Shown: piece by piece, positions 58,864-64,000 of the stretch | Numbering within the stretch: the stretch's first letter is position 1 | How the letters are laid out: each line of letters starts with the position of its first letter | DNA from: Caldisericales bacterium | Lineage (GTDB): Bacteria > Caldisericota > Caldisericia > JAAYUI01 | Assembly (NCBI GenBank): GCA_012517765.1 | Contig: JAAYUI010000016.1 | Coordinates: 62,001-126,000 of the forward strand | DNA length: 64,000 bases | Reading direction: 5' to 3' | Notes under the pieces: generated by a model | What the model was told of the DNA's origin: nothing | Seen by the model: the letters and a program-made list of their open reading frames with translations, nothing else | The model's database searches: none | Translations under genes and position numbers: made by a program

Positions 58864-58912
58864 ACATTTTATGTAGTATATACTTGTGAACGTAATTCTG
58901 TCAAAGGAAACA

Positions 58913-60301
58913 ATGATAAGAAAGGCCAGGGAAACCCTGGCCAATCATTTTCGGGGCATAAAGCTCCACGATGATGCAATGATGGTTGGCGGAACCATCA
59001 GGGACATCCTCCTTGGAAGGACGCCAAAAGACATCGACATTGCAACCCCGAAAACTGCCGAACTTGTCCAGGGTTTTGTCGACAAGGGATTTACTCATGT
59101 CCTGCTGGATGAACAGCGCGACATCCACAGGATGGTTGGGAATGGCGTGCACATTGACATCACCCCACTTCACCATGACCATATCCATGACTTGATTGGG
59201 AGAGATTTCACCATCAACGCTATTGGGCTTGTGATAAGCACAGAGGAAGTCCTGGACCCGCAAGGTGGAATGAAAGACCTCTCCAAGGGTCTTGTAAGGG
59301 CGCTTTCGGAAGACAGGTTCCTTGAAGATCCACTCAGGCTCATAAGGGCATTCAGGATAGCCGCAGACCTCTCCTTCTCCATAGATCCTGTCACAAAACG
59401 CTTCATCACAAAACACGCCCACCTGATAAACAGGCCAAGCAAGGAAAGAATAAGGGACGAGGTTTGCTGGACAATCGAGGCCCCAAGGTCATACCCGGTC
59501 ATAGAAGAGCTTACAAGGACAGGCATCTTAGGAAGAATACTGCCAGAATTTGCTTCCGTGTCACAGGTGATAGCCCACAAACCACATGCGCTTGGCCTGA
59601 CCGAGCACCTTCTCTGGACATACAAGTACCTTGAAGATATCCTGGAAGATCTCGACTCAATGCTTGGCGATTATGCCGACAATGCAAAAGAATTGCTGTC
59701 AACAGTGATGGCCTCCGACAGAAAAATGTTCATTTGCACAAAATTGGCAGGGCTCCTTCATGACATAGGAAAACCACAAACAATAACCTACGAGGAAGAA
59801 GTACATTTCCTTGAACATGACAGGGTCGGTTCTGAAATGGTCTCGAAAAGGATGGAGGAATTAAAATTCTCGTCTGCAGAAACCAAAACAGTTTCCGGGA
59901 TTGTCCTGAACCATATGAGGCCACACAATCTCCAGAGGCTTGACAGTGTGAGCCCCAAGGCTGTTTTCAAATATTTCAGGGACCTCGAGCAGATAGCCAT
60001 ACCAACCCTTCTGGTTGCTGTTGCAGATGCCTATGCAACCCAGATGGTGCCATATGGGTCTCTGGAAGCATATCATGAGTTCGTCAAGTCAATGGTTGCC
60101 GAAAACCAACAAATGGGCAAACCAAAACCGCTCCTCACCGGAGATGAAATAATGAAGCTCCTTGGAATTGGTCCTGGGCCAGAAATCGGCCTTGCCGTTA
60201 GTTACCTTGTCGAGGCACAGGCACTCGGACAGATAACAACAAAAACACAGGCCAAGGAGCTAATAAAATCGAAAGGCTACCTAAATGAAGGAAACGCTTG
60301 A
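58913..60301 (+). CDS. cca: CCA tRNA nucleotidyltransferase with HD domain
   Basis: MVGGTIRDILLGRTPKDIDIAT; GRDFTINAIG; EDPLRLIRAFR; LLHDIGKPQT; SD-like AAAGGAAAC before ATG 58913. Confidence 0.93.
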   Translation: MIRKARETLANHFRGIKLHDDAMMVGGTIRDILLGRTPKDIDIATPKTAELVQGFVDKGFTHVLLDEQRDIHRMVGNGVHIDITPLHHDHIHDLIGRDFTINAIGLVISTEEVLDPQGGMKDLSKGLVRALSEDRFLEDPLRLIRAFRIAADLSFSIDPVTKRFITKHAHLINRPSKERIRDEVCWTIEAPRSYPVIEELTRTGILGRILPEFASVSQVIAHKPHALGLTEHLLWTYKYLEDILEDLDSMLGDYADNAKELLSTVMASDRKMFICTKLAGLLHDIGKPQTITYEEEVHFLEHDRVGSEMVSKRMEELKFSSAETKTVSGIVLNHMRPHNLQRLDSVSPKAVFKYFRDLEQIAIPTLLVAVADAYATQMVPYGSLEAYHEFVKSMVAENQQMGKPKPLLTGDEIMKLLGIGPGPEIGLAVSYLVEAQALGQITTKTQAKELIKSKGYLNEGNA

Positions 60302-61316
60302 AAAATTCGTCCGGATAAGCTCTTCATCATGCCACGAGGAGAAAGTGGCAGAGCTTTTCCGGCAGGTGATATCTGAAACAGGCTATGAGACCAGAACTGA
60401 CAGGATAGGAAATGTTTATGCAGAAATCTCCTGCGGTGTTGATGGGGCAAAAAAAATCATGATCACCGCCCACAGCGACGAGCCTGCGCTGGCAGTCCAG
60501 GGATTTACAGAAGATGGCTTTGTAAGAATATGGGACTGGTCGGGGGTTGACCACAAGGTATTGCCAGGACAGGAAGTTGTAATACACGGCACTTGCGAAA
60601 TTCCAGCCATAATAGGAATCCTGCCTCCGCACCTGACAAAACCTGGTGACAAAAAAGCTGTTCCAATAACAAAACTCTACGCCGACACCGGCATGCCGGC
60701 AGACTGGGTGGCCGGCAAGGTAAAAATCGGCGACCAGGTGACATTCAAAAAACGCTTTTCCGAGCTAAAGAATGGCCGCGTTGCAGGTTGTGCACTGGAT
60801 AACAGGCTAAGCGTAACAATGCTGCTTGAGCTGGCAAAAAAATTGAAAAGGGTAAAACTTAACATTGATGTTGTCCTGGTGTGCACCACACAGGAAGAAA
60901 TCGGTGGATACGGAGGATTTTCCGCTGCAATGGATGTAAAACCCGATCTTGCAATAGCTGTTGACACCACAACCGCAGAACAGCATGGGGAATCCGGCAA
61001 ATCATACCTGCCATTTGACAAGGTTTGTCTTGATAACGGACCGATAATCAACCCAAAAATCAGGTCAGCATTTATGAGTGCTGCCGAGAAGTTGAACATA
61101 AAAACGTCAGAATACATCTTTTCATCAACCAGCATGACAGAGGCCGATTCGGCATGGGAAGCAGAATTAGGAAGGCCAATATCTGTTGTCTCGATACCGG
61201 TCAGATACCTTCACCAGCCAGTGGAGACTGTTGACCTTTCGGTGGCAGAAAGCGGCGTCGACTTGATATGCGAATTCCTGATGGAACTGCCAGCAAGCCT
61301 GGAAGGGGTGATCTAA
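60285..61316 (+). CDS. M42 family metallopeptidase (paralog A)
   Basis: ITAHSDEPALAV, CALDNRLSV, TTQEEIGGYGG, IAVDTTTA, PVRYLHQPVETVD. Confidence 0.92.
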   Translation: MKETLEKFVRISSSSCHEEKVAELFRQVISETGYETRTDRIGNVYAEISCGVDGAKKIMITAHSDEPALAVQGFTEDGFVRIWDWSGVDHKVLPGQEVVIHGTCEIPAIIGILPPHLTKPGDKKAVPITKLYADTGMPADWVAGKVKIGDQVTFKKRFSELKNGRVAGCALDNRLSVTMLLELAKKLKRVKLNIDVVLVCTTQEEIGGYGGFSAAMDVKPDLAIAVDTTTAEQHGESGKSYLPFDKVCLDNGPIINPKIRSAFMSAAEKLNIKTSEYIFSSTSMTEADSAWEAELGRPISVVSIPVRYLHQPVETVDLSVAESGVDLICEFLMELPASLEGVI

Positions 61317-62341
61317 TGGAACTCCTGAAAAAACTTTGCAATGCTTCCGGTGCACCTGGCGACGAGAGCGAGATAAGGCAGATATTGACTGACTTCTATT
61401 CACAGATGGGCATCACGCCAACAACGGACCACGTTGGCAACATTTTCTTCGTTAAAGAAGGGAAACCAGGCAAACCGATAATCATGCTTGATGCACACAT
61501 GGATGAGGTAGCCCTTCAAGTCACAGGCCACACTTCTGAAGGTGAGCTGAAAGTTGCACAGCTCGGTGGGATTGATGACAGGGTGCTGGCATCCAAGCAT
61601 GTTCTTGTTGGAAAAGAAAAAATAAGAGGCGTTATAGGGTTAAAACCAATTCACAACCAGAAACATGAAGAATGGGACGTTGTAACACCAACAAACGCTC
61701 TCGTTGTTGATATGGGTTGCAAGGACAAGGCAGGGGCTGAGAAAACAGCTCCACTTGGAACCACAATAGTTTTTGACACTGAATTTGAAGACTGGGGCGA
61801 GGTCGTAAAAGCAAAATCTTTTGATGACAGGGCCGGGTGCTGGGCCGTATGCAAGACAATGGAAATGGAAACAGAATGCACGCTTGTCGGATCATTCACT
61901 TTTGGTGAGGAGATAGGCATGAAAGGCGCTGTCTTTGCAGTCAGAAGGTTCATGCCCGATCTGGTTGTTTCCCTCGAGGGGACATCAGCAGGTGACATGC
62001 CAGAGGTTCCAGAACACCAGAATTGCGCAAGGTTCAGATATGGCCCGGTAATAACATTTGAAGATCGCAGTGTGATAATCCCAAGGAATTATCGCCTCCT
62101 GCTGGAAGACGCTGCCCAGAAAAACGACATCCAGTACCAATACAAGGGGACAGTTACTGGCGGAACAAACGCAGGAAGGATGCAGTTTGAAAACGGCGGC
62201 ACCCCATGCGTGGTCATCGCTGCACCCTGCAGGTACATCCATTCGCCAGTTTCGCTGGCCGCAAAATCAGACCTTGAGGCAATGGCCAAACTTTCAAAGG
62301 CGTTCATACAAAGAGTTGACAAGGAAGGACTTCCGCAATGA
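61316..62341 (+). CDS. M42 family metallopeptidase (paralog B)
   Basis: LDAHMDEVALQV, SFDDRAGCWAV, TFGEEIGMKGA, VSLEGTSAGD, PCRYIHSPVSL; TAATG overlap with upstream gene. Confidence 0.92.
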   Translation: MELLKKLCNASGAPGDESEIRQILTDFYSQMGITPTTDHVGNIFFVKEGKPGKPIIMLDAHMDEVALQVTGHTSEGELKVAQLGGIDDRVLASKHVLVGKEKIRGVIGLKPIHNQKHEEWDVVTPTNALVVDMGCKDKAGAEKTAPLGTTIVFDTEFEDWGEVVKAKSFDDRAGCWAVCKTMEMETECTLVGSFTFGEEIGMKGAVFAVRRFMPDLVVSLEGTSAGDMPEVPEHQNCARFRYGPVITFEDRSVIIPRNYRLLLEDAAQKNDIQYQYKGTVTGGTNAGRMQFENGGTPCVVIAAPCRYIHSPVSLAAKSDLEAMAKLSKAFIQRVDKEGLPQ

Positions 62342-63318
62342 AAGATATAATCCAGAAGCTTGTTTCAATCCCATCTCCATCAGGTTTTGAGGAAAAACTC
62401 AGGGAGCAGGTCACAAAACTCCTTGAGGGTAAAATAGGGGAAGTTGATTTCATGGGCAACCTCGTGGTCAAGCACCCCGGGAAGGGCCCAAAAATTCTCG
62501 TTGAAGCCCAGATGGACGAAGACTCCATAATTGCAAACCACATTGATAAAAATGGTTTTATCAGATTCTATCCATCAACTGCAATGAAGGAAGCAGACAT
62601 CCTGAACCGCCAGGTCATTTTTCCAAGCGGGGGCTGTGGCTACATCGGAGCTGAGGAAGTAGCAGAAGGCACCGTGCTTGGTTTTGACAAAATGTTCGTA
62701 GATGTTGGAGCACACGATAAAAAAACTGCAATGAAAATGGTCCAGATTGGAGACCATGCATCCTTCCACACGGAATCCAGACTTGAAGGTGGAAGAGTCA
62801 TTGGAGCTTCAAACTGCAAGGTTCCAGTTGCAGTATTGACATGGCTTGCAAACGAATATGATGGCGATGCCAATCTTGTATATGCCTTCACTGCACAGGG
62901 GAGACTCGGCGGAAGGGGCGCTGCAGCCATCATAACAAGAGAAAACCCAGACATCATTGTCACAATAGATTCAACACCAGCTACAGACACACCAAACTGC
63001 CCTGACAAGACAAGAATTGATCTGGATGCCGGTCCTGTCCTTGTTGTAAAAGGCAACATTGTTCCAAGAGATATGAACGCCGTCTCTATTTTCGAGGAAG
63101 TGGCAGAAGCTTCCGGAATCCAGACCCAAAGGACCGTGAAAGATGCCTATGACATGCATGACATGCGCATCGCACGACTTGTTGCTTCGGTACCGATCAT
63201 CACAGTCGGCATACCAACCAGAAAGTTTGGGATGTTTGGTTCAGTTTCTTCAGTTCCTGATGCACAGGCCGCAGGAAAACTGCTCTCCAAAGCTTTGCGC
63301 AAAAAACTCGTCAAGTAG
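62338..63318 (+). CDS. M42-family paralog C, predicted catalytically inactive
   Basis: Same fold signature (GNLVVKHPGKGPKILVEAQMDEDSIIA; VTIDSTPATDTP) but aligned ligand positions read Q, N/C, G-R and no His. Confidence 0.85.
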   Translation: MKDIIQKLVSIPSPSGFEEKLREQVTKLLEGKIGEVDFMGNLVVKHPGKGPKILVEAQMDEDSIIANHIDKNGFIRFYPSTAMKEADILNRQVIFPSGGCGYIGAEEVAEGTVLGFDKMFVDVGAHDKKTAMKMVQIGDHASFHTESRLEGGRVIGASNCKVPVAVLTWLANEYDGDANLVYAFTAQGRLGGRGAAAIITRENPDIIVTIDSTPATDTPNCPDKTRIDLDAGPVLVVKGNIVPRDMNAVSIFEEVAEASGIQTQRTVKDAYDMHDMRIARLVASVPIITVGIPTRKFGMFGSVSSVPDAQAAGKLLSKALRKKLVK

Positions 63319-63362: not shown

Positions 63363-64000
63363 ATGAAAAGAACACCGCTTTATGAAAAACATGTAGCACT
63401 AGGGGCACAGATTGTCCCGTTCGCAGGTTATGAGATGCCAATCCAGTACACGTCAATTCTTGACGAACACAAAACTGTAAGGGAAAATGCGGGCCTGTTT
63501 GATGTATCGCACATGGGCGAGATTGAGATCAAGGGACCCGAAGCTGTTGCACTGACTGACCAGATCATGTCAAACAACGTCGCCGACATGAAACCTGGCA
63601 CGGCAGAGTACACTGTAATGTGCAAGGAAGATGGCGGAATAATTGATGATCTGTTTATTCACTATGTCAGCAAAGACCACATCTTCCTGGTGGTCAACGC
63701 ATCCAACGCCGACAAGGATTTTGCCTGGATAAAGTCCCACGAACGCCCGGGAGCACAGGTGACAAACCTTTCCGACCAGTATGCCGAAATCGCCCTCCAG
63801 GGCCCAAAGGCAGAAGACATCATCAGAAAAGTTGCTGAATTCCCGGTATGGGACCTCCCGTACTTCCACTTTGGATATGGAAAAGTGGCAGGCAGGGAAG
63901 TCATGGTGGCAAGAACTGGCTATACTGGCGAAGATGGATTTGAGATCTATACAAGCAACCAGGACGCTCCATATATCTGGGACGAACTCCTGAGGGTTGG
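63363..64000 (+). CDS. gcvT: Glycine cleavage system T protein, N-terminal part (runs off right edge)
   Basis: MKRTPLYEKHVALGAQIVPFAGYEMPIQYTSILDEHKTVRENAGLFDVSHMGEIEIKG...ARTGYTGEDGFEIY; open to window end. Confidence 0.95.
   Translation, partial: MKRTPLYEKHVALGAQIVPFAGYEMPIQYTSILDEHKTVRENAGLFDVSHMGEIEIKGPEAVALTDQIMSNNVADMKPGTAEYTVMCKEDGGIIDDLFIHYVSKDHIFLVVNASNADKDFAWIKSHERPGAQVTNLSDQYAEIALQGPKAEDIIRKVAEFPVWDLPYFHFGYGKVAGREVMVARTGYTGEDGFEIYTSNQDAPYIWDELLRV

Follow-up and report, generated by a model that had tools for sequence, protein, structure and literature searches.

A catalytically inactive third member of an M42 peptidase gene array in Caldisericales as a candidate subunit of mixed TET particles

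Introduction

What is the role of an M42 peptidase paralog that has lost its catalytic residues and is encoded next to two active ones? The question is raised by three tandem genes, here called A, B and C, near the end of the 64 000-nt stretch of a Caldisericales genome that we analysed (‘the window’). M42 peptidases have mostly been treated as homomeric active enzymes, with few mixed pairs known. In another self-compartmentalising protease, ClpP of cyanobacteria and plastids, an inactive paralog (ClpR) is built into the particle; the likeness to C lies in the company of an inactive paralog and an active one, whereas the serine protease fold of ClpP is unrelated to M42.

An initial sequence-only reading of the window, made without database searches, had cited mixed TET2/TET3 particles of Pyrococcus horikoshii as a precedent. 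Such PhTET2-TET3 hetero-dodecamers, built from homodimer blocks, have indeed been published (PMC4220976, PMC4745047). They combine paralogous M42 subunits in one particle, as we propose for C; however, both PhTET subunits are active and their hetero-assembly was measured, while we infer it for the Caldisericota array. In Bacillus subtilis a heteromeric contact between the M42 paralogs YtoP and YsdC was detected in cells by in-cell crosslinking (PMC10090944; PDB 9a5r); here too two M42 paralogs are in contact, as proposed for the array, but only a pair was reported. Our search of the open-licence literature found no reports of catalytically dead M42 subunits, M42 pseudopeptidases or a Caldisericum TET. 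For many families, peptidase databases also include homologues that are not peptidases, and sequences like C may already be among these, without a role.

Organization of the array

The window ends in a closely packed run of genes: a tRNA nucleotidyltransferase-like gene, A, B, C and a gcvT-like gene (Table 1). Coordinates, open reading frames and overlaps agree with the initial description, including the intact frame of C and its 4-nt overlap with B. The 5′ end of A shares 17 nt with the end of the upstream gene, one base is common to the TAA of A and the ATG of B, and the ATGA overlap makes translational coupling of B and C likely. In both genera of the source family the array is flanked by a tRNA nucleotidyltransferase-like gene on one side and by gcvT with a transketolase-like subunit on the other (63363-64000 in the window); in other families the neighbours of the array differ (e.g. 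locus L047).

Table 1. Genes of the array region and residues of C, with positions in the window. Residue equivalents are in TmPep1050 numbering unless stated otherwise
Feature	Position	Strand	Description
tRNA nucleotidyltransferase-like gene	58886-60301		Upstream of A; name is a reading of the sequence
Paralog A	60285..61316	+	M42 aminopeptidase, all metal ligands and general base; PF05343, 203.9 bits
Paralog B	61316..62341	+	M42 aminopeptidase, all ligands, Glu at the Asp220 position; PF05343, 236.2 bits
ATGA overlap	62338..62341	+	Stop of B and start of C, 4 nt; also in genomes G001-G004
Paralog C	62338..63318	+	M42 protein predicted to be a dead enzyme, orthologous to active third genes of the TmPep1050 type; PF05343, 102.7 bits
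C Gln58	62509..62511	+	Replaces ligand His60 (alignment)
C Asp60	62515..62517	+	Asp62; kept in every inactive M42 protein found
C Asp122	62701..62703	+	Asp130 (PfTET3 Asp137, dimer-interface salt bridge); kept
C Asn159	62812..62814	+	Replaces bridging ligand Asp168 (alignment)
C Gln187	62896..62898	+	Gln196 (PfTET3 Gln206, oligomer-interface contact); kept in 5/5
C Gly188-Arg189	62899..62904	+	Replace general base Glu197 and ligand Glu198 (alignment)
C Arg193	62914..62916	+	Arg202 equivalent (PfTET3 Arg212, oligomer-interface contact); Arg in 5/5 inactive C
C Asp211	62968..62970	+	Ligand Asp220; kept (alignment)
C Arg295	63220..63222	+	Arg304 (PfTET3 Arg311, dimer-interface salt bridge); kept
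C Gly298	63229..63231	+	Replaces ligand His307 (alignment)
gcvT-like gene	from 63363		Downstream of C; name is a reading of the sequence

Fold and orthology of C

C is a full-length M42 protein, whose PF05343 match scores far above the curated cut-off of 23.2 bits (Table 1). An AF2 model built from a 28-sequence alignment (pLDDT 88.7, pTM 0.90) contains the two-domain TET subunit fold; its best solved matches are TmPep1050 (4p6y, TM 0.90), the tetrahedral enzyme of M. jannaschii and PfTET3/PhTET2. In phmmer comparisons TmPep1050 (TM1050, the M42 leucyl aminopeptidase of Thermotoga maritima; PDB 4p6y/3isx) was also nearest to C, TM1049 (2fvg) was the nearest solved relative of B, and 1vho, which we take to be TM1048, was scored higher by A than by B or C. 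On these scores the order A-B-C appears to match Thermotoga TM1048-1050. The initial reading had named three neighbouring M42 genes in Thermotoga; consecutive numbering bears this out for TM1049 and TM1050. TmPep1050 and C belong to one third-gene clade; they differ in that TmPep1050 is active, with all seven catalytic positions, whereas C retains two.

Catalytic residues of A, B and C

Key positions were taken in TmPep1050 numbering: His60, Asp62, Asp168, Glu197 (the general base, E212 of PhTET2), Glu198, Asp220 and His307; H60, D168, E198, D220 and H307 were counted as metal ligands, Asp62 not being among them. Aligned to TmPep1050, A reads H-D-D-E-E-D-H and B reads H-D-D-E-E-E-H, so that the original statement that both keep the M42 metal-ligand motifs holds at all positions of A and, with Glu for Asp220, of B. 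Glu at this position was present in every active B examined from Caldisericia and Clostridia, Asp in the Anaerolineaceae-type B.

C reads Q-D-N-G-R-D-G. It is devoid of His60, Asp168, Glu197, Glu198 and His307 and retains Asp62 and Asp220 only, D220 being the sole metal ligand kept out of five; the general base position is Gly in all five genomes of the source family. The motifs first listed for C (AQMDE, GASNCK, TAQGRLGG, TIDST and TRKFGMFG) are all present, the change of Asp in ASNCK being Asp to Asn. A search for alternative ligands, which could have overturned the pseudoenzyme claim, found no replacement ligand conserved between the two genera of the family, and the claim stands. As far as sequence can tell, C is almost certainly a pseudoenzyme, no longer an enzyme.

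In principle C could still have some hydrolase activity, using another metal site or another mechanism: it has kept Asp62 and Asp220, and new residues, Cys160 and Arg189, appear within the former active-site motifs. Yet neither genus has either ligand His, the bridging Asp or either Glu, Cys160 is Gly in the second genus (g2), and no conserved replacement His or Glu occurs in the active-site motifs, so we regard residual hydrolysis as very improbable.

All 44 inactive M42 proteins (loci L036-L039 and L095-L184) still have Asp62 in the HxD motif, with the adjacent His often lost; this retention points to a structural role of the residue.

Conservation and selection of C

The source family is represented in our search set by five genomes, four of one genus and one of a second; close named relatives of the source are the ‘Caldisericales bacterium UR.bin110’ and ‘Caldisericia bacterium Go_SlDig’ bins. 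All five carry the A-B-C array with C changed at the identical five positions, where the residues across the two genera are Q/S, N, G, R/K and G. C proteins are 94-96% identical among the four same-genus genomes and 46% identical to that of the second genus. Sequencing or assembly error and chance were ruled out as sources of the losses, the same five positions being lost in four other assemblies.

Fifteen C orthologs from other Caldisericia families, read residue by residue, keep all seven positions (15/15), and for this reason we place the catalytic loss of C as a single event in the family; no further protein with an inactive-type score was found in the 49 Caldisericia genomes searched. Inactive Caldisericota C proteins form one clade (support 100/100), whose stem measures 1.82 changes per site. 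Divergence between the genera after the stem was 1.30 for C, 1.29 for active A and 0.67 for B, and within-genus dN/dS was 0.041-0.084 for C, 0.038-0.077 for A and 0.020-0.044 for B. At the sequence level, these data show a single origin of C from an active third gene of the TmPep1050 type, and purifying selection on C. Sites conserved in active C proteins remained unchanged in all five inactive ones at 12 of 14 positions in the approximate dimerisation domain versus 28 of 63 elsewhere (Fisher p 0.007).

The sequence-only reading had held C unlikely to be decaying, and named absence of C from related genomes with relaxed selection as a sign to the contrary. We found the opposite: C is present in 5/5 family genomes, with no stops and no broken frame, and its dN/dS, 0.04-0.08, is low and like that of active A. 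The loss of catalytic residues by itself would fit a duplicated peptidase in decay, a reading to which the intact frames, the low dN/dS, the 46% identity across genera and the 12 retained dimerisation-domain sites leave practically no credence.

A-B-C arrays and inactive members in other phyla

Caldisericota, Bacillota and Chloroflexota share the A-B-C order of M42 genes (L185-L214, L036-L054 and L095-L184), and so, by gene numbering, does Thermotoga. One Clostridial array, L071, has a middle gene (L071:4981-5991) without the general base and other ligands. We sampled relatives of this genome; 94 of 101 gave matches, mostly with three M42 genes, and 90 loci were read. A was intact in 84 of 84, B was intact in 53 of 89 and inactive in 36, and C was intact in 86 of 89 and inactive in three; arrays with two inactive members numbered zero. 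The general base is lost in the inactive B and the inactive C genes alike.

The 36 inactive B genes (L071:4981-5991 and 35 genes within L096-L163), many of which have lost further ligands, form one clade (100/100), which rules out many independent losses in Clostridial B in favour of one ancestral event. Their dN/dS in close pairs (0.09-0.23) is mostly above that of the A and C neighbours and far below 1. An AF2 model of one of them (pLDDT 91.2) gave TM 0.90-0.94 to solved TET subunits. The Clostridial inactive B proteins (P0004, L071:4981-5991 and relatives) resemble Caldisericota C in being inactive array members; they differ in being encoded by the middle rather than the third gene and in their independent origin, and most of them keep Glu198 and all keep the chamber-loop His discussed below.

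The three inactive Clostridial C proteins have no supported grouping with each other or with Caldisericota C; the tree needs three changes, two of them on very long branches. Two of these third genes, in L181 and L184, have branches of 4.0 and 5.5 and open frames of ∼310 aa without catalytic and oligomer-loop residues; we counted them as inactive only, not as support for a subunit role. Among 30 Anaerolineaceae-type loci B was intact in all, and A and C wherever covered; an inactive member is thus not obligatory. The A-B-C array is thus ancient and widely distributed, and catalysis has been lost in one member (B or C) at least three times, the independent losses being small in number, three to five in all.

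Retained interface residues

Contact residues were transferred from PfTET3, which is ∼25% identical. In PfTET3, the dimer interface is bridged by Arg311 and Tyr312 pairing with Asp137, while Gln206 and Arg212 touch the neighbour across the oligomer interface (PMC4745047). The D130-R304 pair, Gln196 and the Arg202 equivalent are present in 5/5 inactive C and in 36/36 inactive B proteins; the equivalent of PfTET3 Tyr312 is not kept in C. The Arg202 equivalent is Lys or Val in active Caldisericia C; Gln196 and Arg202 are also common among active homologs. Gln288, the equivalent of PfTET3 Q295 on the partner side of the oligomer contact, is lost in C and is variable in active proteins too. We considered a split in which C would be interface donor only and B acceptor only, and dropped it: the Gln288 position is not constant among active proteins, and 22 of 36 inactive B have Gln there.

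B of the source family has itself changed at this interface. Gly replaces Gln at the position of Gln196 in 5/5 family B proteins, versus Gln in 15/15 from other Caldisericia, and this is the only such B subgroup in the class; the motif is TFGEEIG in the window (61900-61920), and TFGEEIG or TMGEELG in the family (G001-G004 included). The change is compatible with B and C remodelling a shared interface.

His123 of PhTET2, a chamber-loop residue, may reach the active site of the adjacent subunit (PMC8993905), and its equivalent is present in 36/36 inactive B proteins. Because this B no longer cuts, the loop His would be of little use to it unless serving a neighbour.

A mixed particle as the probable role of C

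Recurrence of inactive members, their co-location with active paralogs and the retained contacts lead us to the reading that C is probably a non-catalytic M42 subunit of a mixed TET particle with active co-encoded paralogs (B, perhaps A). The separate losses in comparable arrays suggest that such trios may form mixed particles with a non-catalytic member. The hetero-oligomeric role proposed in the initial reading gains likelihood because single inactive members turn up repeatedly (in the arrays sampled elsewhere never A, and never two together) and because contact residues are kept. Weighing against it are the small number of independent losses, the fully active Anaerolineaceae-type arrays, the low identity to PfTET3, the presence of Gln196 and Arg202 in many active homologs and the loss of Gln288 in C.

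Such a subunit would have to manage without metal. Removal of metal from PfTET3 makes the dodecamer fall apart (PMC4745047), so a metal-free subunit is expected to be unstable in a TET unless compensated. The di-metal centre of active TETs would also tie neighbouring subunits together, in which case a metal-free subunit must hold the interface otherwise. In C the former Glu-Glu pair is Gly-Arg or Gly-Lys, and the general base position of the 36 inactive B proteins holds Arg in 14, His in 11 and Lys in 5 (30/36 basic, counts that are not independent within a single clade). A basic residue here could serve as a cation supplied by the protein itself, next to the acidic residues that remain, replacing the charge of the metal, and assembly of the particle would thereby become independent of metal. 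Instead of cutting peptides, the inactive subunit would offer its active neighbours surfaces of the shell, the pore and the loop, much like ClpR for ClpP.

The same loss of metal lends some weight to another possibility, that C works as its own homo-oligomer, e.g. in peptide or amino-acid binding or in regulation, and is merely co-transcribed with the peptidases. Metal-site mutants of TmPep1050 were deposited together with a dimeric form (PDB 5ne6-5ne9), and given this and the disassembly of metal-depleted PfTET3, C might form dimers only. The long stem branch of C, the many pocket residues changed family-specifically, as if the pocket had a new job, and neighbouring genes unrelated to TET (tRNA nucleotidyltransferase-like and gcvT-like) fit this as well. 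Yet the dimer salt-bridge pair and two of the oligomer contact residues are retained, stop and start codons couple C to B, the Gln196 position changed in parallel in B, and inactive members recur in the same type of array in Clostridia; we consider a separate C oligomer unlikely, if far from negligible. Alternatively, C could be no constitutive subunit but an inhibitor or a brake on assembly, poisoning active particles according to its dose. Retention of interface residues together with loss of catalysis would fit a brake too, but B-C translational coupling suggests near-equal amounts of the two proteins and not separate regulation, and we hold this role to be most improbable.

Extending the mixed-particle reading of C, we tentatively suggest a broader model, possible but in our judgement somewhat doubtful: A-B-C arrays of several phyla would encode a three-subunit TET in which B or C, never A, became a permanently metal-free structural subunit in at least three lineages, with the former metal site filled by a basic side chain, assembly proceeding without full metal loading and the inactive subunits acting on the active sites of neighbours via the chamber loop.

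With inactive members recurring in three-gene arrays, the question whether bacterial TETs are as a rule mixed particles becomes open to direct test. The inactive members also separate the structural from the catalytic role of the metals, because the metal site was removed in nature and the protein kept. Annotation by homology would name all inactive members aminopeptidases, an error in 36 of the 89 B genes examined from Clostridia.

The source genome also has a very distant fourth M42-type gene elsewhere (G000:C96:71571-72431, locus L001), in which all ligands are present.
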